Origin: an uncultured Opitutales bacterium
Lineage (GTDB): Bacteria; Verrucomicrobiota; Verrucomicrobiia; Opitutales; Intestinicryptomonadaceae
Assembly: GCA_944389195.1 (NCBI GenBank)
Contig: CALXLM010000018.1
Coordinates: 1 to 35,619, forward strand
Reading direction: 5' to 3'
Length of the DNA stretch: 35,619 nucleotides
Below the pieces are notes generated by a model. The model worked only from the letters and a program-made list of their open reading frames with translations, was not told where the DNA came from and did not search any database. Each line of letters starts with the position of its first letter. Position 1 is the first letter of the stretch. Shown one piece after another: positions 9,220 to 25,557 of the stretch. The translations under genes and the position numbers were made by a program.

Positions 9220-10059
9220 CTATTTAGAGTTGAAAAATTTAAGGAAGAAGAGAATTTGGTAGTCGACGGCGTTGTTCCAGTATTCGTGCGTGTGCGACCC
9301 GGGGCGCGTAATGTATTCGTGCGGAATCCTCATGTATAGCATCTTTTTATGCAGCTCTTCGTTGACGTTGTAGAAGAAGTCGGAGGTGCCGCAGTCTATG
9401 ATTATTTTAGGGGCGGTTCTCGGATTTATTTTGTGGAGCTGGTTGATAACGGTGTGGTCGTCCCATGTTTTGCTGTTCTGGCAATAGTCTCCAAGAGACT
9501 CCTTCATTTTCCAGTTTTCCGGAAACGGGCGTATGTCCACCCCGCCGCTCATAGAGCCGCACGCCCCGAACACATCGGGGTGCCTTATGCCGAGCCAAAG
9601 CGCGCCGTGCCCGCCCATGCTGAAACCGGTAATTGCTCTGCCTTTTGGCGACTTTACCGTCCGGAATTTTGCGTCTATTTGTTCTACGAGCTCTTTTGAC
9701 ACATACGTTTCGTACTTAAATTCGGGCTTTTTTGGCGCGTCCCAATACCAGCTTGTGGATCCGTCAGGGCATACGAATATAACGTCGCACTGCGACGCCA
9801 CTTTTTGAAGCGATGGCTTCGTTCGCTGTATCCACCCAAGATGGTTGTTGCCGAATCCGTGAAGGAGATATATCACAGGATACGATTTTTCGCTTTCCGA
9901 CGCATAGGAGTCAGGAAGGACCACGGTGGCGGGAATCTCCTTGTTCATTGACGCGCTTGCTGTGTTTATAACGCTCACGCTTTCGTCGCCGGCGCGCAGC
10001 AGGCACGCCGAAGACAGTATGAGTATGCCGGTGAATAATAACGCTTTTGCCGTTTTCAT
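9220..10059 (-). CDS. CE1-like exported esterase (EstA/esterase D type), copy 1
   Basis: A 279-residue alpha/beta hydrolase with a signal peptide ending near LRAG. Its triad can be read: nucleophile Ser147 in GFSMGGHG, Asp227 in DCGTSDFF and His256 in PGSHTHEYW; the oxyanion region is YLLHGFGNN. The family includes feruloyl and acetyl esterases and S-formylglutathione hydrolase; the export signal and the glycosidase neighbour favour a carbohydrate esterase. I place the start at the ATG at 10059, which follows the stop codon of the preceding gene by one base (TAA A ATG); the TTG further up is less likely. Such close packing suggests translational coupling. It is a close paralogue of the upstream gene. 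Confidence 0.85.
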   Translation of the reverse strand: MKTAKALLFTGILILSSACLLRAGDESVSVINTASASMNKEIPATVVLPDSYASESEKSYPVIYLLHGFGNNHLGWIQRTKPSLQKVASQCDVIFVCPDGSTSWYWDAPKKPEFKYETYVSKELVEQIDAKFRTVKSPKGRAITGFSMGGHGALWLGIRHPDVFGACGSMSGGVDIRPFPENWKMKESLGDYCQNSKTWDDHTVINQLHKINPRTAPKIIIDCGTSDFFYNVNEELHKKMLYMRIPHEYITRPGSHTHEYWNNAVDYQILFFLKFFNSK

Positions 10060-10060
10060 T

Positions 10061-10912
10061 TTATTTGTTTTGTTTGTTGATTTTTCCGTCAAAGAATCTC
10101 TTGAAGAAAAGCATGTGGTATTCTATGGCGTTGTTCCAATAGTCGTGTGTGTGGCCGCCGGGACGGAACGTGAAGTCGTGCGGTATTTTCAATTTCATTA
10201 GCTTTTCCGCAAGTGCCTTGTTGACATCAAAGAGAAAATCGTCGAATCCGCAGTCGATAAAAAGATAGGGAGAACCGGGATTCATCTTTTCTACCAAATG
10301 GAATGCTGAGTTGTTTTTGCGCAATTCCTGTGTCGAGGCTTCGTCTCCGAAAATTTTATCGAGAAGCAGCGTGTTTTTGTGTTTTAGAAGATTTACGGCT
10401 CCGCTTGTCGATCCTGCCGCGCCGAATATTTCGGGATTCCTTATGGCAAGAATAAGAGCGCCGTGCCCTCCCATGCTCGCCCCCGTTATTCCGCGCTTGC
10501 TTTTGTCGCGCTCAACGCGGAATTTTTTCTCTATTTGCGGCACAAGTTCCTTTGTTATATATGTTTCGTATTGCGAGTTCTTGTCTATGGGGCTGTCAAT
10601 ATACCATGTGTTGCCGACTTCTGGGCACACCACCACAATGTCGTATTTCGACGCCAAAGACTGCAGGTCGGGCTTTATTTTCGGCCACGATTTTCTGCTT
10701 CCCGTGTATCCGTGCAGCATGTACAAGACCGGATATTTTCTCGATCCTTCGGTAAAATACGAATCAGGAAGAACCACAAGAGCCGGAATGGTCTTGTTCA
10801 TTGATTCGCTTTTTATCTGGGTGTCGAAAACCTTTTCGATGCAATCTGATGCGCACGCGCATACCGCAGTTGCGGCGAAGATAAATATTGAAATAATACG
10901 GCAACCTTTCAT
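10061..10912 (-). CDS. CE1-like exported esterase, copy 2
   Basis: A 283-residue paralogue of the next gene, with the same blocks: SESMNKTIPALVVLPDSY, YMLHGYTGS, nucleophile Ser146 in GASMGGHG, Asp225 in CGFDDF and His254 in PGGHTHDYW. A hydrophobic signal (CRIISIFIFAATAVCACA) follows the chosen ATG at 10912; a second ATG at 10945 and a longer frame upstream are possible, but only this one gives a clean signal peptide. Function as for copy 1: probable acyl or feruloyl esterase acting outside the cytoplasm. It is the first gene of the esterase-esterase-glycosidase unit and diverges from the antiporter gene over 98 bp that must hold both promoters. No Shine-Dalgarno is visible. Confidence 0.85.
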   Translation of the reverse strand: MKGCRIISIFIFAATAVCACASDCIEKVFDTQIKSESMNKTIPALVVLPDSYFTEGSRKYPVLYMLHGYTGSRKSWPKIKPDLQSLASKYDIVVVCPEVGNTWYIDSPIDKNSQYETYITKELVPQIEKKFRVERDKSKRGITGASMGGHGALILAIRNPEIFGAAGSTSGAVNLLKHKNTLLLDKIFGDEASTQELRKNNSAFHLVEKMNPGSPYLFIDCGFDDFLFDVNKALAEKLMKLKIPHDFTFRPGGHTHDYWNNAIEYHMLFFKRFFDGKINKQNK

Positions 10913-11010
10913 AGAAACGATGATAATAAAAGAAATAGGTCGCATGTAGCAAATAAAAAACGTCTTTCGGAGTTTTTTAAGCGGCGGAAAAATTCGGATT
11001 TTACTCTGAT

Positions 11011-12510
11011 ATGAGGCACATAACCCCTGAGAATATTCTGCTCGTAGGTTCGGGAATGCTTCTTGCAAGCGTTTTTGCCGGGAAAATGAGTTCGCGGTTC
11101 GGGATACCTTCTCTGCTGTTGTTTCTGGGCGTCGGAATGATTATGGGAAGCGACGGCGTAGGATACCATTTTGACAACGCCTATACGACCCAATTCGTCG
11201 GTATAATGGCGCTTAGCGTCATACTTTTTTCCGGGGGCGCAGACACGAGGTTTTCGGAGGTAAGGCCCGTGCTTCGCGAGGGGATTGTCTTAGCGACGCT
11301 CGGGGTCGTTTTAACGGCACTGCTAACGGGGGCGTTCATTTGGCGTGTGAGCGGTTTTTTCGGGTTCGACCTCGGTTTTGCGGAATCGCTTTTGTTGGCT
11401 TCGGTGATGTCGTCCACCGATTCGGCGTCTGTTTTTGCGCTGCTGCGCTCAAAGGGGCTTTCGCTGCGCGAAAATTTAAGGGCCACACTCGAGCTTGAAA
11501 GCGGAAGCAACGACCCCATGGCATACATACTGACCGTGGTGCTTATACAGTATATACAGGGTGGAGTATCTTTAGATTCGGCGTTTTTGATGTTTTTTGC
11601 GCAGATAGTATTGGGGGCGGCCCTTGGGGTGTTTTTCGGATATGTCGTCGTGTGGCTGGCAAACAGGGCGGCTTTCGACAATGCGTCGCTATATTCGGTT
11701 TTAATTGTCGCGTGCGTATTATTCATATTTTCGGCGACAGACAGATTGGGCGGAAACGGTTATTTGGCGGTATATGTGTCGGGTCTGCTTTTCGGGAACT
11801 CCAAAGTGGCGCATCTGAGAAACACAAAGAGGTTCTTTTCAGCCTTTGCATGGCTATGGCAGATAATTATGTTTCTTACGCTTGGACTTCTCGTCAATCC
11901 GAGCGAGCTTCTACCAGTGTCGGTTTTTGCGCTGCTTATAGGCGTATTTCTGATATTATTAGGCCGCCCATTGAGCGTGCTGCTGTGCTTGGCACCGTTT
12001 AAGACCTATTCGGCTCGCGGAAAGCTGTATATATCGTGGGTCGGACTGCGCGGCGCGGTGCCGATTATTTTCGCAACATATCCGCTTGTTGCCGGAGTGA
12101 CGGAAGCACGGCTTATGTTCAACGTCGTATTTTTTATAACCATATTGTCGCTGGCGGTCCAGGGTATGACGGTCGCTAAAATGGCTTTCTGGCTTAAGGT
12201 TTGCGGAAAAGGCGAAAACGCAAAGTCGAATTTGGATTTTGAGCTTCCCGACGAAATGAAATCGGTGATATCCGAAATAGATGTGACAGAGACTCTGCTT
12301 TCGGGCGGGGATACGTTGGCGTCGCTTTCGCTTCCCCCAAAGACTTTGGTCATCATGGTCGGGCGCGGCGGGGGATATTTTATACCGGGCGGCGCCTCGA
12401 AGCTTTGCAAAGGCGACAAGCTGTTTGTTATAAGCCACGATGAAAGCAATCTGAAATCGGTATGCGAAAAATTGAACGTGCCATATTATACGATGGGCGA
12501 AAACAGTTGA
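11011..12510 (+). CDS. K+/H+ (or Na+/H+) antiporter of the CPA1 NhaP2/CvrA type
   Basis: A 499-residue protein with about 12 membrane spans, followed by a cytoplasmic tail. The transport core carries the CPA motifs LFLGVGMIMGSDG, ILFSGGADT, the SSTDSASV block and LELESGSNDPMAY with the conserved Asp-containing centre, and WVGLRGAVPIIFATYPL late in the core. The tail from about residue 415 to 490 (KTLVIMVGRGGGYFIPGG and KGDKLFVISH) matches a TrkA-C/RCK-C regulatory domain, the architecture of NhaP2/CvrA potassium-proton antiporters. It should export K+ or Na+ against H+ to control volume and pH. The ATG start has no clear Shine-Dalgarno. Confidence 0.85.
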   Translation: MRHITPENILLVGSGMLLASVFAGKMSSRFGIPSLLLFLGVGMIMGSDGVGYHFDNAYTTQFVGIMALSVILFSGGADTRFSEVRPVLREGIVLATLGVVLTALLTGAFIWRVSGFFGFDLGFAESLLLASVMSSTDSASVFALLRSKGLSLRENLRATLELESGSNDPMAYILTVVLIQYIQGGVSLDSAFLMFFAQIVLGAALGVFFGYVVVWLANRAAFDNASLYSVLIVACVLFIFSATDRLGGNGYLAVYVSGLLFGNSKVAHLRNTKRFFSAFAWLWQIIMFLTLGLLVNPSELLPVSVFALLIGVFLILLGRPLSVLLCLAPFKTYSARGKLYISWVGLRGAVPIIFATYPLVAGVTEARLMFNVVFFITILSLAVQGMTVAKMAFWLKVCGKGENAKSNLDFELPDEMKSVISEIDVTETLLSGGDTLASLSLPPKTLVIMVGRGGGYFIPGGASKLCKGDKLFVISHDESNLKSVCEKLNVPYYTMGENS

Positions 12511-14753: not shown

Positions 14754-15011
14754 TTAAGCAGTTATTCGTTCGTCGGTTTTTAACGCCGCAATGACCCTTT
14801 GCATGGACAATATTCTGTGCTTTAATCCGTTTTCGTATTCGTCGGGAGAGAATGCGGCCGTGCGCGAAGGATTATCGTCGTTGTTTAGCGAGCATCTGCA
14901 GATTTCGCATATCGAGGTTTCTCCGTTGACGTCGAAAGCGACGGCTTTTATATCGCTTCCGCAAATGTGTCACCGTTGTCCGATTGACAGGGTTTTAACT
15001 TTTCTTACCAT
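14754..15011 (-). pseudogene. small zinc-ribbon protein interrupted by in-frame TGA (nonsense mutation or selenocysteine candidate)
   Basis: On the minus strand an ATG at 15011 opens a frame of 85 codons that ends with TAA at 14754-14756 and has one internal TGA (14970-14972, codon 14). Before it the protein reads VRKVKTLSIGQR; after it come HICGSDIKAVAF, then ICEICRCSLNN, and a helical charged tail ending ALKTDERITA. If TGA were Cys, residues 14-34 would form a normal zinc ribbon: CxxCG, about 16 residues, CxxC. The substitution falls exactly on the first ligand, so either a TGC/TGT codon mutated to TGA or the codon is read as selenocysteine (UxxC). No ATG, GTG or TTG after the TGA could restart the ribbon. 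No Shine-Dalgarno is visible. A plus-strand frame (14791-15054) overlaps but is poor in charged residues and less protein-like. The family is not known to me. Confidence 0.45.
14933..14961 (-). other. 9-bp hairpin just downstream of the in-frame TGA (possible SECIS-like element)
   Basis: Read on the minus strand, the RNA CGGAAGCGA pairs with UCGCUUUCG (nine pairs, one G-U) around an 11-nt loop. The stem begins 9 nt after the TGA and the loop begins 18 nt after it, within the 16-37 nt range described for bacterial SECIS elements. The loop starts with UA, so it lacks the G usually found in its first two positions. A chance hairpin in coding sequence is equally possible. Confidence 0.3.
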
Positions 15012-15150
15012 AAAATGCAGTTGTTTTTTCTTTGTATATTTTATTATATTATGAAAAGCTTCAATATTTCAATAAAAAATATAAATAATTTTTCTATGAA
15101 TTAACCATAATTATTATGCGTTTTGTTTGCGGCCTGCGATTCGAATGTGT

Positions 15151-15208: not shown

Positions 15209-16684
15209 ATGGCGAATAAAGTTTATCTTGCGGTTGATTTGGGGGCGGGCAGCGGGCGTTTGATGGCCGCCGTTTTTGATTCGAAAAAAATAAGGCTCGA
15301 GGAGGTGTCGCGTTGGGCGAGCGAGCCGGTAAAAACTGGCAACTCCTTTCATTGGGATGCGGAGGCAATATTCGGCGAGATTGTGTCCGCGATAAAAAAG
15401 GCGAGGGCAATTTACGGGGCTTCGATAGTTTCGGTGGGCATAGACACATGGGGGGTGGACTACGGGTTGCTTGACGCCTCCGACAAACTTTTGAACATGC
15501 CGTACATTTATAGGGACTCGCGTACCGACGGAATGATGGACAGAGTGTTTTCAAAAGTTCCGAAAAGGGACATCTATTTTCAGACCGGCATACAGTTCAT
15601 GTTTTTTAACACGCTGTTTCAGATAATGGCCGAGCTTGAAAAGGGTGGAAATATAGACAAGGCAAGGACATTTTTAATGATGCCCGATTTGTTTGCGTTC
15701 ATGCTTACTGGCGTAAAAGCCAACGAGAGGACGAACGCTTCTACGACGCAAATGTACAATCCCTTCAAGCGCGAATGGTCGAAGGAAATAATAGGTGGCA
15801 TAGGTGCACCGCAGGGGATTTTCGGGAGCGGATTCGCCGAGTGCGGAGATGCAATAGGCGGTTTGCGCGCTGAGCTGCGCGGAGAATTGGGCGATATGAA
15901 AGTTGTTGCCGTGGCCAGCCATGACACTGCTTCGGCGGTTGCGGCGGCCCCTGCGCGCACGGGTTTGACGGCGTATATCAACAGCGGAACATGGTCTCTG
16001 CCGGGGGTGGAATTAAGCGCTCCGGTCGCAACCGACGCATCTTTTAAGGAGAATTTTACAAACGAAGTCGGGGCGGAAAACACGATACGCTTCCTCAAAA
16101 ACGTCACCGGAATGTGGCTTGTGCAAAAATCCAAAGAGTCGTGGAGGTCGAAAGGCTGCGACAAATCGTATGCGGAGCTCGAAAAGGCCGCGGCAGAAAG
16201 CGAACCTATGCGCACGCTGATAAATCCGGACGCCCCGGATTTCGTCATGCCGCAGGACATGCCGGGCGCCATCGCCGAGTTTGCCCGTAAAAACTCCCTG
16301 CCGGTGCCAGACACCCACGGCCGCATTTTTAGGGCCATACAGGAAAGCATCGCCCTCAAATACGCCTGTGTTTTCGATACTATCGAAAAACTCTGCGGCG
16401 TTGTCGTATCCGAGATAAACGTGATGGGAGGAGGCTCAAAAGACTCTATGTTGAACCAGTTTACGGCCGATGCGACGGGGCGCACGGTGCTTGCCGGCCC
16501 TACGGAGTCGACCGCCCTCGGAAATGTCGCCATGCAGATGAAGGCGGACGGTATCGTCGGGAATCTCGCCGAGGCGCGCGCTATTATATCGGCAAGCTGC
16601 GAGCCGAAAGTTTACGAACCCTCACGGGAGGCCGCCCCAAAATGGGCGGACGCGCTCGGAAAATTTCGGGAAATGTACGCGTAG
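15209..16684 (+). CDS. rhaB: rhamnulokinase (FGGY family)
   Basis: A 491-residue cytoplasmic sugar kinase that phosphorylates L-rhamnulose to rhamnulose 1-phosphate. The ATPase motif VDLGAGSGRLM is at the N-terminus; GIDTWGVDYGLLD, YRDSRT and TGIQFMFFNTLFQ are rhamnulokinase-type sequences; NSGTWSLPGVE and NVMGGGSKDSMLNQFTAD form the second ATP-binding half. Length matches the family (480-490). No isomerase (rhaA/rhaI) or aldolase (rhaD) gene lies in the window, so the rest of the rhamnose pathway must be elsewhere. A good Shine-Dalgarno and a bulged-stem terminator flank it, so it is probably a single-gene transcription unit. Confidence 0.92.
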   Translation: MANKVYLAVDLGAGSGRLMAAVFDSKKIRLEEVSRWASEPVKTGNSFHWDAEAIFGEIVSAIKKARAIYGASIVSVGIDTWGVDYGLLDASDKLLNMPYIYRDSRTDGMMDRVFSKVPKRDIYFQTGIQFMFFNTLFQIMAELEKGGNIDKARTFLMMPDLFAFMLTGVKANERTNASTTQMYNPFKREWSKEIIGGIGAPQGIFGSGFAECGDAIGGLRAELRGELGDMKVVAVASHDTASAVAAAPARTGLTAYINSGTWSLPGVELSAPVATDASFKENFTNEVGAENTIRFLKNVTGMWLVQKSKESWRSKGCDKSYAELEKAAAESEPMRTLINPDAPDFVMPQDMPGAIAEFARKNSLPVPDTHGRIFRAIQESIALKYACVFDTIEKLCGVVVSEINVMGGGSKDSMLNQFTADATGRTVLAGPTESTALGNVAMQMKADGIVGNLAEARAIISASCEPKVYEPSREAAPKWADALGKFREMYA

Positions 16685-17468: not shown

Positions 17469-19004
17469 CTATTTTCTATGAAGGCGCCGTTTTGCCGCGA
17501 AAGCCAACACGATAAAGCCCAATATCGACGCCCATTCTGCGGGTTCCGGGACGGCATTCAGCCAGTATCCCTGGGTTCCGTCGGAATAATTGCCTTCCAC
17601 GAATTTCAACATATCTTCGGTATATACGGTTCCGTCGGACGACTTTGCGGTAATTTCTAACGAATTTAAATTGTTTGTGGTTACGAAAAATACCATGTTG
17701 TTGGAAAAGTTTTCAATGTTTAATTCGTAGGTTCCGTTTACCCCGTTAAAGGATTCAAAGAACAGGGTATTTTGCGGATTGTCCGACAGGCGTATGGTGA
17801 GGTCTCCGGTTCCGCTGTAATATAATTGCTTAAATTTATTTGCGGCGTTTAATTCAAGCGTGTTTCCGCTTCCGACAATGAGCAGGTTGGAGTTGGTTGT
17901 ACTTCCATACGTAGATATCCTTTTAAATGCGTTTTCCTTGTTGAGCACGAGCGTTGATCCATTAGATATGAAAACTCTGCCTTCGTAGATTTCATCGGAG
18001 GAATCTATGACAACATCCGTAAGCTCTATTTTGCCGCTGTCTTCGCTTACATTGAATGTTCCGCCTCCTGTTATGTCAAGCGCCCCATTAATATAGATTG
18101 TTCCTCCTCCGCTTATGTAAGAATTTCCCGAAATCTTTATGCGCGCATTTGTTCCGGGAGTCAAATTTTTGGATATCACACTTCCTCCGCTTATATCTAT
18201 GTTATATAGTGTAATCTCGGAGGTATAGGTATATTCAAGCGTTCCATTTACAGCAAACGCTGTGTTTTTTTCAATTGTGGTTTTTGACAGCTTGAAAGTT
18301 GCTCCGCTTGCTATCGATGCTGACGAACCGTTATAGAATGCAAAATTTCCGGCATTAGAGGCGTCTAAAACACTATTCTCGCCGATTGACAATATCGCTC
18401 CTGATCCGAAATAAGTGTTAGTGACGGAATGGTTTACAGTGATTCCTCCGTTTATGGCATATCCGCCCCCGGCATTGCTTGCAAATGTAAGCATTTCACC
18501 GGTTATGTTTGCGTTAGTGCCTATGATTAGATTGGACTTTTCAGTCGAGGGTCTATTGACTGAGAATCTTACTGACGTTCCGACGTTTATGTCGGCGAAC
18601 GTGGATTCGCCGCCTTTTGAATTCTTTATTGTCAGCGTTCCGAGGTTCCAGCCGATAGTATTTCCGCTGTTATTCAGCGCCGTGACGTTGCCGTCTGAAT
18701 CGGAATTAATGTCTATTGTCAGGTCGCCGGTAAAACTCCACTTTAAACCTTCCGGGGGGGGGGTGTTAGTCGCGGCGTCAAGAGAGGTAATTGTGCTGCC
18801 GTTTCCCTTGAACATTGTGCCGTCGTAAGCTGTAGATTCCGGGCTTTCAAGAATTACGTTATAGTCTCCGGAGGGGATTGCCACGCGCGTCAAATAGTCT
18901 CCGCCTCCGCCAACAACAGTTATACTTTCGGTTGAAAAGGCGCTTGTAGCCAAAATTGCCGATGATATAAAATAAAGCGGGATATAAGTGAATTTATATT
19001 TCAT
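17469..19004 (-). CDS. PEP-CTERM sorting-domain surface protein, beta-helix-like
   Basis: A 511-residue exported protein. An N-terminal signal (MKYKFTYIPLYFISSAILAT) is followed by about 440 residues rich in Gly, Ser, Thr and Asn with short repeated strands (GSTITSLDA, SGNSYISGGGTIYINGAL, GSTLVLNKEN), as in autotransporter-type or pectate-lyase-like beta helices. The C-terminus is a standard exosortase tail: VPEPAEWA (PEP at 486-488), a hydrophobic span and KRRLHRK. It should be cut by an exosortase and released or fixed at the cell surface; the exosortase is not in the window. No enzymatic motif is visible. A C10 tract near codon 80 could switch the gene on and off. No Shine-Dalgarno before the ATG. 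It is a likely paralogue, in tail and style, of its upstream neighbour. Confidence 0.85.
   Translation of the reverse strand: MKYKFTYIPLYFISSAILATSAFSTESITVVGGGGDYLTRVAIPSGDYNVILESPESTAYDGTMFKGNGSTITSLDAATNTPPPEGLKWSFTGDLTIDINSDSDGNVTALNNSGNTIGWNLGTLTIKNSKGGESTFADINVGTSVRFSVNRPSTEKSNLIIGTNANITGEMLTFASNAGGGYAINGGITVNHSVTNTYFGSGAILSIGENSVLDASNAGNFAFYNGSSASIASGATFKLSKTTIEKNTAFAVNGTLEYTYTSEITLYNIDISGGSVISKNLTPGTNARIKISGNSYISGGGTIYINGALDITGGGTFNVSEDSGKIELTDVVIDSSDEIYEGRVFISNGSTLVLNKENAFKRISTYGSTTNSNLLIVGSGNTLELNAANKFKQLYYSGTGDLTIRLSDNPQNTLFFESFNGVNGTYELNIENFSNNMVFFVTTNNLNSLEITAKSSDGTVYTEDMLKFVEGNYSDGTQGYWLNAVPEPAEWASILGFIVLAFAAKRRLHRK
18754..18763 (-). repeat. mononucleotide tract, ten C in the coding strand of the PEP-CTERM gene
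   Basis: Ten G on the plus strand, hence C10 in the coding strand, encode the PPP of TNTPPPEGLKW near codon 80. This is the longest homopolymer of G/C in the window (others are 6-8) and a classic site for slipped-strand frameshifts. Confidence 0.8.
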
Positions 19005-19150
19005 AAGGCGTAAATAATTTTGTTAAAAATTTAATAAAAATCCGCTTCTTTCTTTACAAGAAAATTATGCCTTTTTTTGTTAAACGGTTTAATTTTTATA
19101 TCAGTATAATTATCAATATATTGCAAATTAAAATTACTCAAAAAAAACAA

Positions 19151-19178
19151 AAGACCGCAAAAGTATCCTTGCGGTCTT
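19151..19178 (-). terminator. intrinsic terminator of the second PEP-CTERM gene
   Basis: A perfect 10-bp stem (19151-19160 with 19169-19178) with an 8-nt loop; on the minus strand it is followed by ttgttttttt. It lies about 35 bp after the stop codon of the 337-residue gene. Confidence 0.85.
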
Positions 19179-19211
19179 GCAATATATTAAAAAAGTTATT
19201 TTTAAAACGGT

Positions 19212-20225
19212 TTATTTTCTTAAACGGCGTTTCCCAAATGCAAGAATCAATGCCGCCAAACCGAATATCGCCGCCCATTCGGCAGGTTCGGGAACGGCGG
19301 TCAGCAGGAATCCGTCTGAAGTGGTAATCCAATTAAGATTGGTAAGCGGATTTCCCGCAGAGTCCACGAATTTAAACGTATGGGTTTTTTCAGATGAGGT
19401 GGTCGTCAACAGGAGCGACGACGTTTCCGAATCCCATGAGTCCTCATTCCAAATGCTCGAAGAGTTTGAGAACAGTATGCCACCATCGGTAAGACCATTA
19501 TCAATATAAATAGTAGCCGCTTTATCATTCCATAATGTCGATTGAGTCGCAGATGTTACTGTGATAATTGCGCCGTCTGTAATGTTGAAATAAGCTCTTG
19601 TGCCAGTTCTCAAGTCTAATCCCAATGTCTGGTTTTTCGATGTATTAAGCGTGAACGAGCTATTATTACCGCCGTCGCTAATTCCTACCACGGGTACTGT
19701 GGAACCATCGGTGTACAGGGCGTTTTCCTTGCTTAAATTCAGTGTTAGTTTGCCTTGGTTGGCAAAGGCCTTTTTTATGGATACGTTGCCGGCAGATTCT
19801 TCAATGTTTATGGCAAGCGTAGAGGAAGCGTTGTTTAGGGATATCGAATTGCTGTTCGGTATGGATATGTTGCCTCCGTCCTTTATTGTTATGGAGTTTG
19901 TGCCTCCCTGCGCCACAATAGCGTACCAAGCCGACCCGTTTATAACCGACAATGCGCCGTTGGATTCGTTGGTGCCGGTAATGGAGAGCGTTTTAGAGGA
20001 GTCGTTCAAGGTTATGTTTCCGCCGTACAGCCATATAGATTTATAGGTGAGGGTGGATCCGAAATCGGATATGTCTCCGGTTCCGGAAACCTTGTACGTT
20101 TGTATGGTTCTGGCAGCGTCGGTATATGTGGCCTCCTGTATCGTAAGTTGTGCTAATGCACTCGGTATAAATATAAGATACGATACTACGGATAGAATAA
20201 TATTTGTAGGGGTTTTTATTTTCAT
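19212..20225 (-). CDS. PEP-CTERM sorting-domain surface protein
   Basis: A 337-residue exported protein with a signal peptide ending PSALA, a Ser/Thr/Asn-rich beta-strand body with repeated motifs (NITLNDSSKTLSITGTN, NSITIKDGGNISIPNS, GKLTLNLSKEN) and a C-terminal VPEPAEWA (PEP at 312-314), hydrophobic span and KRRLRK tail. The tail is almost the same as that of the next gene. It is predicted to be handled by an exosortase and displayed or secreted. Function beyond that is unknown. It has its own good promoter and its own terminator, so it is transcribed alone. No Shine-Dalgarno is visible; the leader just before the ATG is rich in A, C and G (acgaccaacgaccacc). Confidence 0.85.
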   Translation of the reverse strand: MKIKTPTNIILSVVSYLIFIPSALAQLTIQEATYTDAARTIQTYKVSGTGDISDFGSTLTYKSIWLYGGNITLNDSSKTLSITGTNESNGALSVINGSAWYAIVAQGGTNSITIKDGGNISIPNSNSISLNNASSTLAINIEESAGNVSIKKAFANQGKLTLNLSKENALYTDGSTVPVVGISDGGNNSSFTLNTSKNQTLGLDLRTGTRAYFNITDGAIITVTSATQSTLWNDKAATIYIDNGLTDGGILFSNSSSIWNEDSWDSETSSLLLTTTSSEKTHTFKFVDSAGNPLTNLNWITTSDGFLLTAVPEPAEWAAIFGLAALILAFGKRRLRK

Positions 20226-20409: not shown

Positions 20410-21114
20410 CTATTCTTCAAAACCTATCGAACTTTTGAGAATATTTTGCGAACCCCCGCGGATTGCCTGGGCGATATTGAACGTTCTCGAGGTTTCGCCG
20501 TAAATAGTCAAAAGTCCCTGGCCCGTGTTTTCGTCGCGTAGTGACTGGTACCATTCTACGTGGGCGTCGGTAAAGGCGATGTGGCCGCCTTCGCGCTTGA
20601 ATACGCCTTCGTTTGCGTCCCATTCGCCGTTGGGTTTTAGCCCGCGGGACCATACAAGGGGAGTTCCGGACGGGGCGTTCGGGTCTGTGCGGTTTGCAAC
20701 CGCCCAGCTTATCGGGAAACTTTTAAATTCGGGGTCGATTTGAGTCGTCGAGCCCTTGCGGTCTATGACAAACTTCGGCATGGCCGCCCCCGACGAAATT
20801 TTTTCTATTACGGGAAGGTCGAAGTCGAGAATCCAGATCTTCGGGTCGTTGAAGTCGTCGACGCCGCGCGCCAGGGCCGCCGCCCAGTCGTAAATCGTCT
20901 GCCCGGTGACGATGCGCGTTTTTGTGCCCGTCTTAACGTACGAGAGCCACGTCTTTGCGATGTTGCTTGCGCTGTTCATCGACTTTACCTTGCTGCCCGC
21001 GCCCATTGCCTGGCTGAGCGCCGGATAAATCAAACTGGCCAGAACGCCGATGATGGCGATAACGATAAGCAGTTCGACGAGTGTGAATCCTTTGGATTTA
21101 TTTATTTTTTTCAT
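20410..21114 (-). CDS. type II secretion-type pseudopilin with long C-terminal domain
   Basis: A 234-residue protein with a class III (prepilin) signal: MKKINKSKG cut before FTLVELLIVIAIIGVLASL, with the +5 Glu present. A prepilin peptidase would remove the leader and methylate Phe. The rest is a large variable domain that ends in GGHIAFTDAHVEWY, a close relative of the H-x-DG tail of the many stand-alone pseudopilins of Verrucomicrobiota, Lentisphaerota and Planctomycetota. These usually occur in many copies and not with a complete secretion operon; none is seen here. Its exact role is unknown. It stands next to the PEP-CTERM genes on the same strand but has its own terminator. Confidence 0.85.
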   Translation of the reverse strand: MKKINKSKGFTLVELLIVIAIIGVLASLIYPALSQAMGAGSKVKSMNSASNIAKTWLSYVKTGTKTRIVTGQTIYDWAAALARGVDDFNDPKIWILDFDLPVIEKISSGAAMPKFVIDRKGSTTQIDPEFKSFPISWAVANRTDPNAPSGTPLVWSRGLKPNGEWDANEGVFKREGGHIAFTDAHVEWYQSLRDENTGQGLLTIYGETSRTFNIAQAIRGGSQNILKSSIGFEE

Positions 21115-22836: not shown

Positions 22837-22918
22837 TTTGGCAGAAAAACCGGCTTGTTTGGCGTCTTAAAGGGTCGGGTGTTGTTTTTTTATCGTTAAC
22901 AAATATATGGAGGGAAAA

Positions 22919-24232
22919 ATGCAAAGACGGGATTTTGTGAAATCTTCCGCTATAATCGGCATGGCGGCCGCCATGCCGCGCTTCGGTTTTGCGGAGGCCA
23001 AAGGGAGCGACAGAATCAAAGTGGGGCTTGTCGGCTGCGGCGGCCGCGGAAGGGGCGCGCTGTGCAATATGATTTCTGCGGATCCAAATGTTGAGATAAC
23101 GGCTCTTGCGGATCTTTTTCCGGAAAAGCCCGCGCAGGCGCTTGCGGCGGTTGAAAAACACGTAAAAAAGCTCGGCTTAAACGCGGGCGAGATAATTGAC
23201 TCATCGAAAGTGAAGCGGTTCAGCGGGGTTGGCTGTCTCGGCGAGCTTTTGGAGTCGGGCGTCGACGTGGTTGTCGATGCGTGCTCCCCGGCGTTTCGCG
23301 CGCCTAACTTCGAAAAGATTGTCGCAGCGGGCAAGCATGCGTTTCTTGAAAAGCCGGTTTGCATAGACGCCACCCAGGCGCGCAAAATGCTCGAGCTTTC
23401 CAAGAAAGCGGACGAAAAGGGCATGTGCGTTGTCTGCGGAACCCAGCGCCGCTACGACGCCGGGTACCAGGAAATGATAAAGCGCGTCCAGGACGGCGGC
23501 ATAGGCGAAATAGTTTCGGCGCAGTGCTATTGGAACGACGGTGATTATGTCGGCAGAAACCAGCTCAGAAATACGGAGCTTATGTGGGATACCATGGAGT
23601 ACCAGATACGCAACTGGTTCTCTTTTATATGGGCTTCGGGCGACCACATCGTGGAGCAGCACGTGCACAATCTCGACGCGGTAATGTGGGCTTTGGGCGA
23701 CAACCGGTTCCCTGTCGAGGTTCGGGCATGGGGCGGAAGAAGCACAGATCTGCCCACTCCCACCTACGGCGACCGCTTCAGCCATTTTGCGGTGGATTTC
23801 GACATGGGCAACGGGCTCCGTTTGCAAAGCTATTGCCATCAGGATCCGAAAACGGCAAGGGAGCAGGGCGAGCGCCTCATCGGGACGAAGGGTGTCATGT
23901 ATTCGAGCCTCGGCGGCAAAGTCGGTTTTCAAGACCTTAAGGGAAACACCGTTTGGGAGGCTTCAAAACCTGAGATCCCGGGTCTTGTGGCCGAGCACAA
24001 GTTCCTTCTTGACGCCATAAGAAACGGAAAGCAAGTAAACAAGATAAACCAGCTTGTAAACTCGACGCTTCTGGCCATAGCGGGGCGTTTAAGCGCTTAT
24101 TCCGGAAAGAAATTCAAGTTCGATTGGGTCTTGGCAAAATCGAAGGAAAATCTCTGTCCTGAAAAAATAGAATTTGCAAAGAAAATGCCTTGGAACGGCG
24201 TTCCTGTTCCTGGAAAATTTCAATTAATATAA
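22919..24232 (+). CDS. Tat-exported Gfo/Idh/MocA oxidoreductase, copy 1
   Basis: A 437-residue NAD(P)-dependent oxidoreductase. The N-terminus QRRDFVKSSAII followed by a small hydrophobic stretch is a twin-arginine signal, so the folded, cofactor-loaded protein is exported. The Rossmann motif is VGLVGCGGRGRGA, and HAFLEKPVCID is the family EKP motif; the C-terminal half has the usual open beta-sheet with EQHVHNLDAVMWALGD. Members act on sugars and derivatives, and some exported ones are NAD-dependent glycosidases with tightly bound NAD; the substrate here is unknown. The start is set by a strong GGAGGG before the ATG; the upstream in-frame ATG at 22907 is part of that leader. It forms an operon with the following paralogue (17 bp gap). 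Confidence 0.85.
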   Translation: MQRRDFVKSSAIIGMAAAMPRFGFAEAKGSDRIKVGLVGCGGRGRGALCNMISADPNVEITALADLFPEKPAQALAAVEKHVKKLGLNAGEIIDSSKVKRFSGVGCLGELLESGVDVVVDACSPAFRAPNFEKIVAAGKHAFLEKPVCIDATQARKMLELSKKADEKGMCVVCGTQRRYDAGYQEMIKRVQDGGIGEIVSAQCYWNDGDYVGRNQLRNTELMWDTMEYQIRNWFSFIWASGDHIVEQHVHNLDAVMWALGDNRFPVEVRAWGGRSTDLPTPTYGDRFSHFAVDFDMGNGLRLQSYCHQDPKTAREQGERLIGTKGVMYSSLGGKVGFQDLKGNTVWEASKPEIPGLVAEHKFLLDAIRNGKQVNKINQLVNSTLLAIAGRLSAYSGKKFKFDWVLAKSKENLCPEKIEFAKKMPWNGVPVPGKFQLI

Positions 24233-24249
24233 TGTAAGGAGAAAAAATT

Positions 24250-25557
24250 ATGGAAAGACGCGATTTTGTAAAAACATCCGCGATAATCGGCGCGGCGTCG
24301 GCTTTGCCGCGCTTCAGTTTCGCCCAGGTAAAGGGGAGCGACAGGATTAAGGTGGGGCTTATAGGCTGCGGCGGCCGCGGCACGGGCGCCACATGCAACA
24401 TGATAGAGGCCGATCAGAACGTTAAGATTGTGGCCATGGCAGATCTTTTCGCAGACAAGATTCCCGGTTCCAAAAAGAAAATACAGGACTTTTTGAATAA
24501 GAACTTCCCCGAAAAGGCCAAGGATATTTTTGACTCTGACAAAGTGAAAACATTTACCGGATGGGACTGTTGCGACGCCCTCTTAAAAGAGGACGTGGAT
24601 TTAGTCATAGAGGCGACTCCTCCAGTGTTCCGCACGCCGCATTTTGCAAAAATAGTCGAAGCCGGCAAGCATGCGTTCCTCGAAAAGCCGGCGTGCGTCG
24701 ACATAACGCAGGCCAGGGAAATAATGGATCTTTCAAAGAAAGCCACCCAAAAGGGCATGTGCATCGTTACGGGCAACCAGCGCCGCTATTCGGGAACGTA
24801 TCAGGACGCAATAAAGCGCGTCCAGGACGGCGAGATAGGAGACATTCTTTCGGCGCAATGCTACTGGAACGGCGCGTATTACGTAGGCGGCTATAAAGGT
24901 TTCGAAAATCTCGGGTTCGACTCCACCGAATACCAAATTCGCAAATGGGGGGCGTTTATATGGACTTCCGGAGACCAGATTGTCGAACAGCACGTGCATA
25001 ATCTCGACGTGATAATGTGGGCATTGGGCGACAAACGTTTCCCGGTGGAGGTTCGCGCATGGGGCGGCAGGAGCGCCGACGCGGAGCTTCCGTCGCCGCA
25101 ATACGGCGACAGATTTTCACACTGTGTGGTGGATTATGACTTTGGAGATGGTTTGAGGCTTATGAGCTCTTGCAGCCAGGAGCGCAAAACTTCCGGGGAG
25201 GTCGGCGAGCGCATTATCGGCACGAAGGGCATTTTTACGACTTCGGGCGGGTGCAGGTTTGTCGACGCCAAGGGGAAGGTTCTGTACATGAACAAGGAAA
25301 ACTTTCCCAACGCGTATGTGGCCGAGCACAAGTTCCTTCTCGACGCAATACGCGCAGGGCGCCGCGTGAACAAGCTCGACGAACTCATAGGCTCCAACCT
25401 GATAGCCATAGCGGGGCGCATGAGCGCCTTCTCGGGCAAAAAGTTTAAATACGGGTGGATGCTTGCAAAATCCAAAGAGTCGCTTGCCCCCAAGGAGTGG
25501 AAGTTTGAAAAGCGTGCGGTAAGCGTTCCGGTTCCGGGGGAATACGAGCTTGTTTAA
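24250..25557 (+). CDS. Tat-exported Gfo/Idh/MocA oxidoreductase, copy 2
   Basis: A 435-residue paralogue of the gene before it; large blocks are almost identical (RDFVKTSAIIGAASALPRF, HAFLEKPACVDITQARE, NQRRYSGTYQDAIKRVQDG, VEVRAWGGRS). It has a twin-arginine signal (ERRDFVK), the Rossmann motif VGLIGCGGRGTGA and the EKP motif, as in copy 1. An AAGGAG Shine-Dalgarno lies 7-8 nt before the ATG. The clearest differences are in the stretch after the Rossmann fold, where this copy has KNFPEKAKDIFDSDKVKTF. The tandem pair most likely arose by local duplication and may handle related substrates or form a mixed oligomer. The substrate is unknown. Confidence 0.85.
   Translation: MERRDFVKTSAIIGAASALPRFSFAQVKGSDRIKVGLIGCGGRGTGATCNMIEADQNVKIVAMADLFADKIPGSKKKIQDFLNKNFPEKAKDIFDSDKVKTFTGWDCCDALLKEDVDLVIEATPPVFRTPHFAKIVEAGKHAFLEKPACVDITQAREIMDLSKKATQKGMCIVTGNQRRYSGTYQDAIKRVQDGEIGDILSAQCYWNGAYYVGGYKGFENLGFDSTEYQIRKWGAFIWTSGDQIVEQHVHNLDVIMWALGDKRFPVEVRAWGGRSADAELPSPQYGDRFSHCVVDYDFGDGLRLMSSCSQERKTSGEVGERIIGTKGIFTTSGGCRFVDAKGKVLYMNKENFPNAYVAEHKFLLDAIRAGRRVNKLDELIGSNLIAIAGRMSAFSGKKFKYGWMLAKSKESLAPKEWKFEKRAVSVPVPGEYELV

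Follow-up and report, generated by a model that had tools for sequence, protein, structure and literature searches.

A TGA at a conserved cysteine codon probably marks a decaying copy of a small four-cysteine gene in a gut Opitutales lineage

The stretch of DNA analysed here (the window, 35,619 nucleotides) comes from an uncultured Opitutales bacterium and carries on its minus strand a short reading frame that is interrupted once, by a TGA at the position where the first cysteine of a C-x2-C pair would be expected. A hairpin is predicted shortly after this TGA. The locus thus raises the question of whether the TGA is a nonsense mutation in a gene that is being lost or is read as selenocysteine; a preliminary description made from the sequence had left both readings standing.

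Translation confirms the frame as it had been described. It occupies positions 14754..15011 and has 85 codons between an ATG at 15011-15009 and a TAA at 14756-14754, reading MVRKVKTLSIGQR up to the TGA at codon 14 (14970..14972) and HICGSDIKAVAFDVNGETSICEICRCSLNNDDNPSRTAAFSPDEYENGLKHRILSMQRVIAALKTDERITA from there to the terminal TAA. The TGA is the sole interruption; a second stop or a frameshift is absent. The second cysteine of the C-x2-C pair is encoded by the TGC at 14961..14963, and translation and alignment place the C-x-C pair of the family (conserved E-x-C-x-C) in the stretch ICEIC(R)C at 14892..14906, so that three of the four site cysteines (C-x2-C...C-x-C) are retained and the first is the TGA. 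A sigma-70-like promoter match (TTGAAA-18-TATAAT, 11 of 12 consensus positions; a consensus match only) lies on the same strand at 15043..15072, 32 bases 5' of the ATG. The divergent neighbour on the plus strand, at 15209..16684, is a rhamnulokinase-like sugar kinase gene (rhaB), a name taken from its sequence alone.

Whether such a short frame is a gene had to be decided on grounds other than codon use. Its codon score ranks within the lowest 3% of segments taken from real genes in the window; this is weak evidence of decay, because the intact homologues in genomes G004 and G002 likewise score low. Six-frame codon scores alone also fail to distinguish the strands at 14791-15054, where an overlapping plus-strand open reading frame lies. 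We rejected this frame as the true gene, since homology, cysteine pattern and start all favour the minus strand. Codon statistics are insufficient by themselves to prove that the interrupted frame is coding; at the level of sequence comparison the proof comes from protein homologues that match it in register, which makes it more than a chance frame. The view that this is, or once was, a real gene is thereby borne out, and homology was found on the minus strand rather than only to the overlapping plus-strand frame.

The search for relatives, made with X at codon 14, returned cysteine homologues in related genomes. The window protein matched one genome of the same family (E = 2.8e-5), a profile built from it and this first relative found seven relatives, and the resulting eight-row profile added an eighth, in G002 (E = 2.2e-6). 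Homologues are thus present in 8 of 18 relatives from the same GTDB family, in two of its three genera. One genome, G010 (one contig, 2.3 Mb), gave no candidates even for an EF-Tu-type protein or rhaB, and absences from it were left uncounted. Profile searches of the remaining 354 genomes of the order-wide sample yielded no homologues, nor did the phylum-wide sample of 388 genomes beyond the window's genome and G004, and the window's own protein had no match among 85k genome records. Five of the homologues stand in records of metagenome-assembled genomes (MAGs) labelled Opitutales or Verrucomicrobiota, two of them from yak abomasum and cecum.

All eight homologues are intact frames of about 80-95 amino acids. 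Their starts lie 13-14 codons 5' of the first cysteine, conserved to within one codon, and neither the second cysteine nor the C-x-C pair varies in any homologue or in the window copy. At the position of the TGA all eight carry TGC, as predicted from the C-x2-C pattern; no residue other than cysteine occurs there among them, and the supposed TGC to TGA change is indeed a change of one base. No second TGA-bearing homologue was found in the order-wide, phylum-wide or record searches.

This Cys4 family (about 80 amino acids, C-x2-C...C-x-C and a C-terminal helix) is undescribed and confined to one gut Opitutales family. Sequence searches of Pfam, NCBIfam and PDB gave no significant family matches; the closest approach was PF09526 (DUF2387, probable metal-binding protein), at E = 0.025-0.046 for two members, which is below the curated Pfam cut-off. 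Members resemble PF09526 and other small zinc-ribbon families in their small size, their CxxC motif and a very weak profile similarity, but no Cys4 protein matches these families at significance. A phage or mobile origin was also considered and rejected, as neither phage records (queried with the G012 homologue) nor viral contigs gave a match and PHROGs gave none of significance. The family is represented at our loci L100-L104, and the copies of G006, G017 and G002 lie in L079, L081 and L083.

The selenocysteine reading has several attractions: the UxxC geometry, the cysteine that all 8 homologues have at the TGA position, and a hairpin with its loop 18 nt from the TGA. In having a TGA at a CxxC cysteine of a small Cys-rich protein, the locus resembles bacterial UxxC/CxxU selenoproteins, among them the FmdB-family candidates from the GOS survey (PMC2398784). 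The predicted fold is real and is a 10-bp hairpin with a 9-nt loop (AUAAAAGCC; 14933..14961, minus strand). The earlier distance to the loop is upheld, and the stem begins 8 nt after the TGA and has 10 bp, where 9 nt and 9 bp had been given. A stem of this length at a comparable distance is found at only 1.7% of 9,019 codon positions in the window's genes. Its energy is ordinary, however: z = -1.36, 20 of 200 shuffled sequences fold equally well, and the 45-nt folding energy is equalled or bettered at 15% of 920 sampled codon positions in the window's genes.

The bacterial SECIS (bSECIS) model needs a G in the first or second position of the loop (PMC13188914). We applied it as a stem-loop 16-37 nt past the TGA with a G among the first two bases of the apical loop. 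The distance of 18 nt fits, but the loop begins with AU, as the preliminary description had already noted when it remarked on the missing G, and the rule is broken. The hairpin is therefore not a bacterial SECIS.

The machinery for selenocysteine is likewise missing. The joint presence of selB and selC is the signature of Sec decoding used by Romero et al. (PMC1273633). Across 19 genomes (the window's genome and its 18 relatives), two models detected no SelA; the best SelB scores were at most 186 bits against a cut-off of 242, from matches that look like EF-Tu, IF-2 and LepA-type paralogues; and the best SelD scores were at most 43 bits against a cut-off of 125, from matches resembling AIR-synthase-like proteins. 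In the window's genome no tRNA-Sec exceeded the gathering score, every tRNA-Sec-like match that was read proved to be an ordinary tRNA, and none of the 40 tRNAs over the tRNA cut-off has a UCA anticodon. The search for selA, selB, selC and selD that had been proposed as a check thus found none of them above cut-off in this genome. About 4% of the genome is missing, and tRNA-Cys(GCA), tRNA-Asp(GTC), tRNA-Ile(GAT) and tRNA-Ala(TGC) are also not among the 40 tRNAs, probably owing to gaps in the MAG. With such gaps, failure to find one tRNA gene is indecisive by itself; what decides the matter is that the family lacks both SelA and SelB.

In the GOS survey, sequencing errors were the reason for demanding two or more TGA-bearing sequences per new selenoprotein family (PMC2398784); here the TGA occurs in the window's copy only. 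The locus differs from the UxxC/CxxU selenoproteins, then, in that Sec machinery, a loop compatible with SECIS and a second TGA sequence are all absent. Selenocysteine is excluded as far as the available genome allows, and we regard decoding of this UxxC motif by that route as vanishingly improbable. Cysteine homologues together with an absence of sel genes had been named beforehand as the combination that refutes selenocysteine and leaves a nonsense mutation, and of the two original readings it is the nonsense mutation that is favoured.

Other ways of reading through the TGA were weighed as well. Genome-wide recoding of TGA was rejected: TGA is used as a stop, ending 5 of the 24 main genes in the window, RF2 (prfB) is kept (516 bits), and no tRNA with a UCA anticodon was found. 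Leaky termination is a local alternative, in which tRNA-Trp or a near-cognate tRNA would read the codon at a low level, so that traces of full-length protein would be made, residue 14 being Trp or Cys. The stop stands in the UGA-C context, which terminates weakly in E. coli, and the codons past it are intact. The presence of RF2 speaks against this, as does the exclusive use of cysteine at the site in homologues, so that Trp would probably spoil it; nor is there a conserved recoding element, since no other sequence has the TGA. We consider such leakage quite unlikely. Less likely again is decoding at a useful level, by a near-cognate or modified tRNA and without Sec machinery, that would keep a divergent Cys4 protein in use; the chance of this seems to us very slim.

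The window copy had already diverged strongly from its relatives. In a rhaB tree the window genome is sister to G008 (support 100/98), followed by G004, and its rhaB is 82% identical to that of G008 and 80% to that of G004. The small gene of the window has only 25% identity to either, whereas those of G008 and G004 are 84% identical to each other and stand elsewhere in the genome than the window's copy. On the tree of the small gene the window copy has a branch of 8.89 changes per column, compared to 0-0.5 for most relatives. The site divergent from rhaB is common to the window (197 bp apart) and G012 (about 175 bp), where the intact homologue is the neighbour of rhaB in the same orientation as in the window. 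The sequence 5' of rhaB in G008 and in G004, the two sisters, yielded no remnant of the small gene, and no relative more than 35% identical to the window copy was found with which relaxed selection could be tested. One of two histories applies to the window copy, and the tree cannot separate them: its evolution was strongly accelerated, or it is an old paralogue since lost from both sisters.

The genomic place of the small gene varies among G008, G004, G012, G006 and G002. The family is patchy and its neighbourhood is different in most genomes, as if it were moving as a single gene. Given this patchy presence (8 of 18) and shifting neighbourhood, we infer that the gene is dispensable.

Taken together, the observations are very probably explained by a one-base nonsense mutation, TGC to TGA, in a small, monocistronic gene specific to this gut Opitutales lineage, whose copy in the window has decayed or is decaying. 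The ancestral gene would have encoded a protein of about 80 amino acids with a four-cysteine C-x2-C ... C-x-C site of metal-binding type and a C-terminal helix. In the window copy the codon for the first site cysteine, TGC in all homologues, would have changed to TGA by one base, and translation would stop after 13 residues. The next in-frame ATG after the TGA is codon 70, past the cysteine site, and a reading of the in-frame codons found no ATG, GTG or TTG restart between the TGA and the site; a usable truncated product is not expected, because none of these start codons precedes most of the site. We infer that the window copy has lost its function. It shows two marks of a pseudogene, namely in-register homology to intact relatives and a disabling TGA with no downstream restart.

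The locus is like an ordinary premature-stop pseudogene in its intact homologues in relatives, its single-base in-frame stop and its patchy presence. It is unlike one in that it has a single lesion so far and an uncommonly large divergence from its homologues. That lesion would have arisen recently, because the frame is otherwise undamaged, three of the four cysteines are kept and promoter-like sequence is in place. The long branch predates the stop, and it could equally mark a paralogue that was divergent but functional.

The same clean frame invites another explanation, that the organism has a cysteine codon and an intact gene and that the TGA is one miscalled base in the MAG consensus or assembly. 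TGC and TGA are one base apart, and the related assemblies are MAGs, in one of which the contig coverage is close to 3. Per base, however, a wrong single-base call in a consensus is a rare event, and the codon score, branch length and identity of the window copy are independent signs of drift. An error of this kind is thus unlikely, although we give it some weight beside the nonsense mutation.

For the intact protein, AlphaFold, run on six sequences, predicted a small domain with good confidence (mean pLDDT 86.8). The fold has strands with the C-x2-C pair in a turn and the C-x-C pair at the end of the third strand; a fourth strand follows, and then a long helix at the C terminus. The best structural matches were PUR-alpha repeats (Z 5.3 and 5.1, rmsd 3.9 over 64 residues), with relatives of PC4 also among the matches; at Z scores below 8, no more than a general arrangement may be shared. 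These single-strand nucleic-acid-binding folds have in common with the model its beta strands and, after them, a long helix at the C terminus, but the Cys4 protein is only 6-18% identical to them in sequence. To our knowledge, PUR and PC4 domains lack a four-Cys site.

The zinc ribbon initially proposed is plausible from the cysteine pattern and is not established: neither Pfam nor NCBIfam offers a significant family, and the predicted fold is a beta-sheet with a long helix. No zinc ribbon was found among the structural matches, a missing match that is no evidence against one. Our guess is that the intact protein may be a small metal-stabilised nucleic-acid-binding or adaptor protein.

Several other features of the window were observed in passing. 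Two adjacent minus-strand proteins at 17469-20225 have PEP-CTERM-like tails (VPEPAEWA...RRLRK), and a type IV pilin-like protein (20410-21114) adjoins this pair. Two similar Gfo/Idh-type oxidoreductases with twin-arginine-like leaders stand in tandem at 22907-25557. At 9220-11068 there is a second tandem, of two esterase-like proteins that resemble each other and that by eye are of the S-formylglutathione hydrolase/esterase D type; each tandem is probably a duplication.

The selenoprotein candidate at this locus is closed by direct tests, and the case shows that an isolated TGA at a cysteine position with a hairpin nearby can arise without selenium decoding in the genome. As a by-product, the analysis brings to light a Cys-rich small gene family that protein family libraries do not recognise, a minor point of interest for those who annotate gut Verrucomicrobiota.
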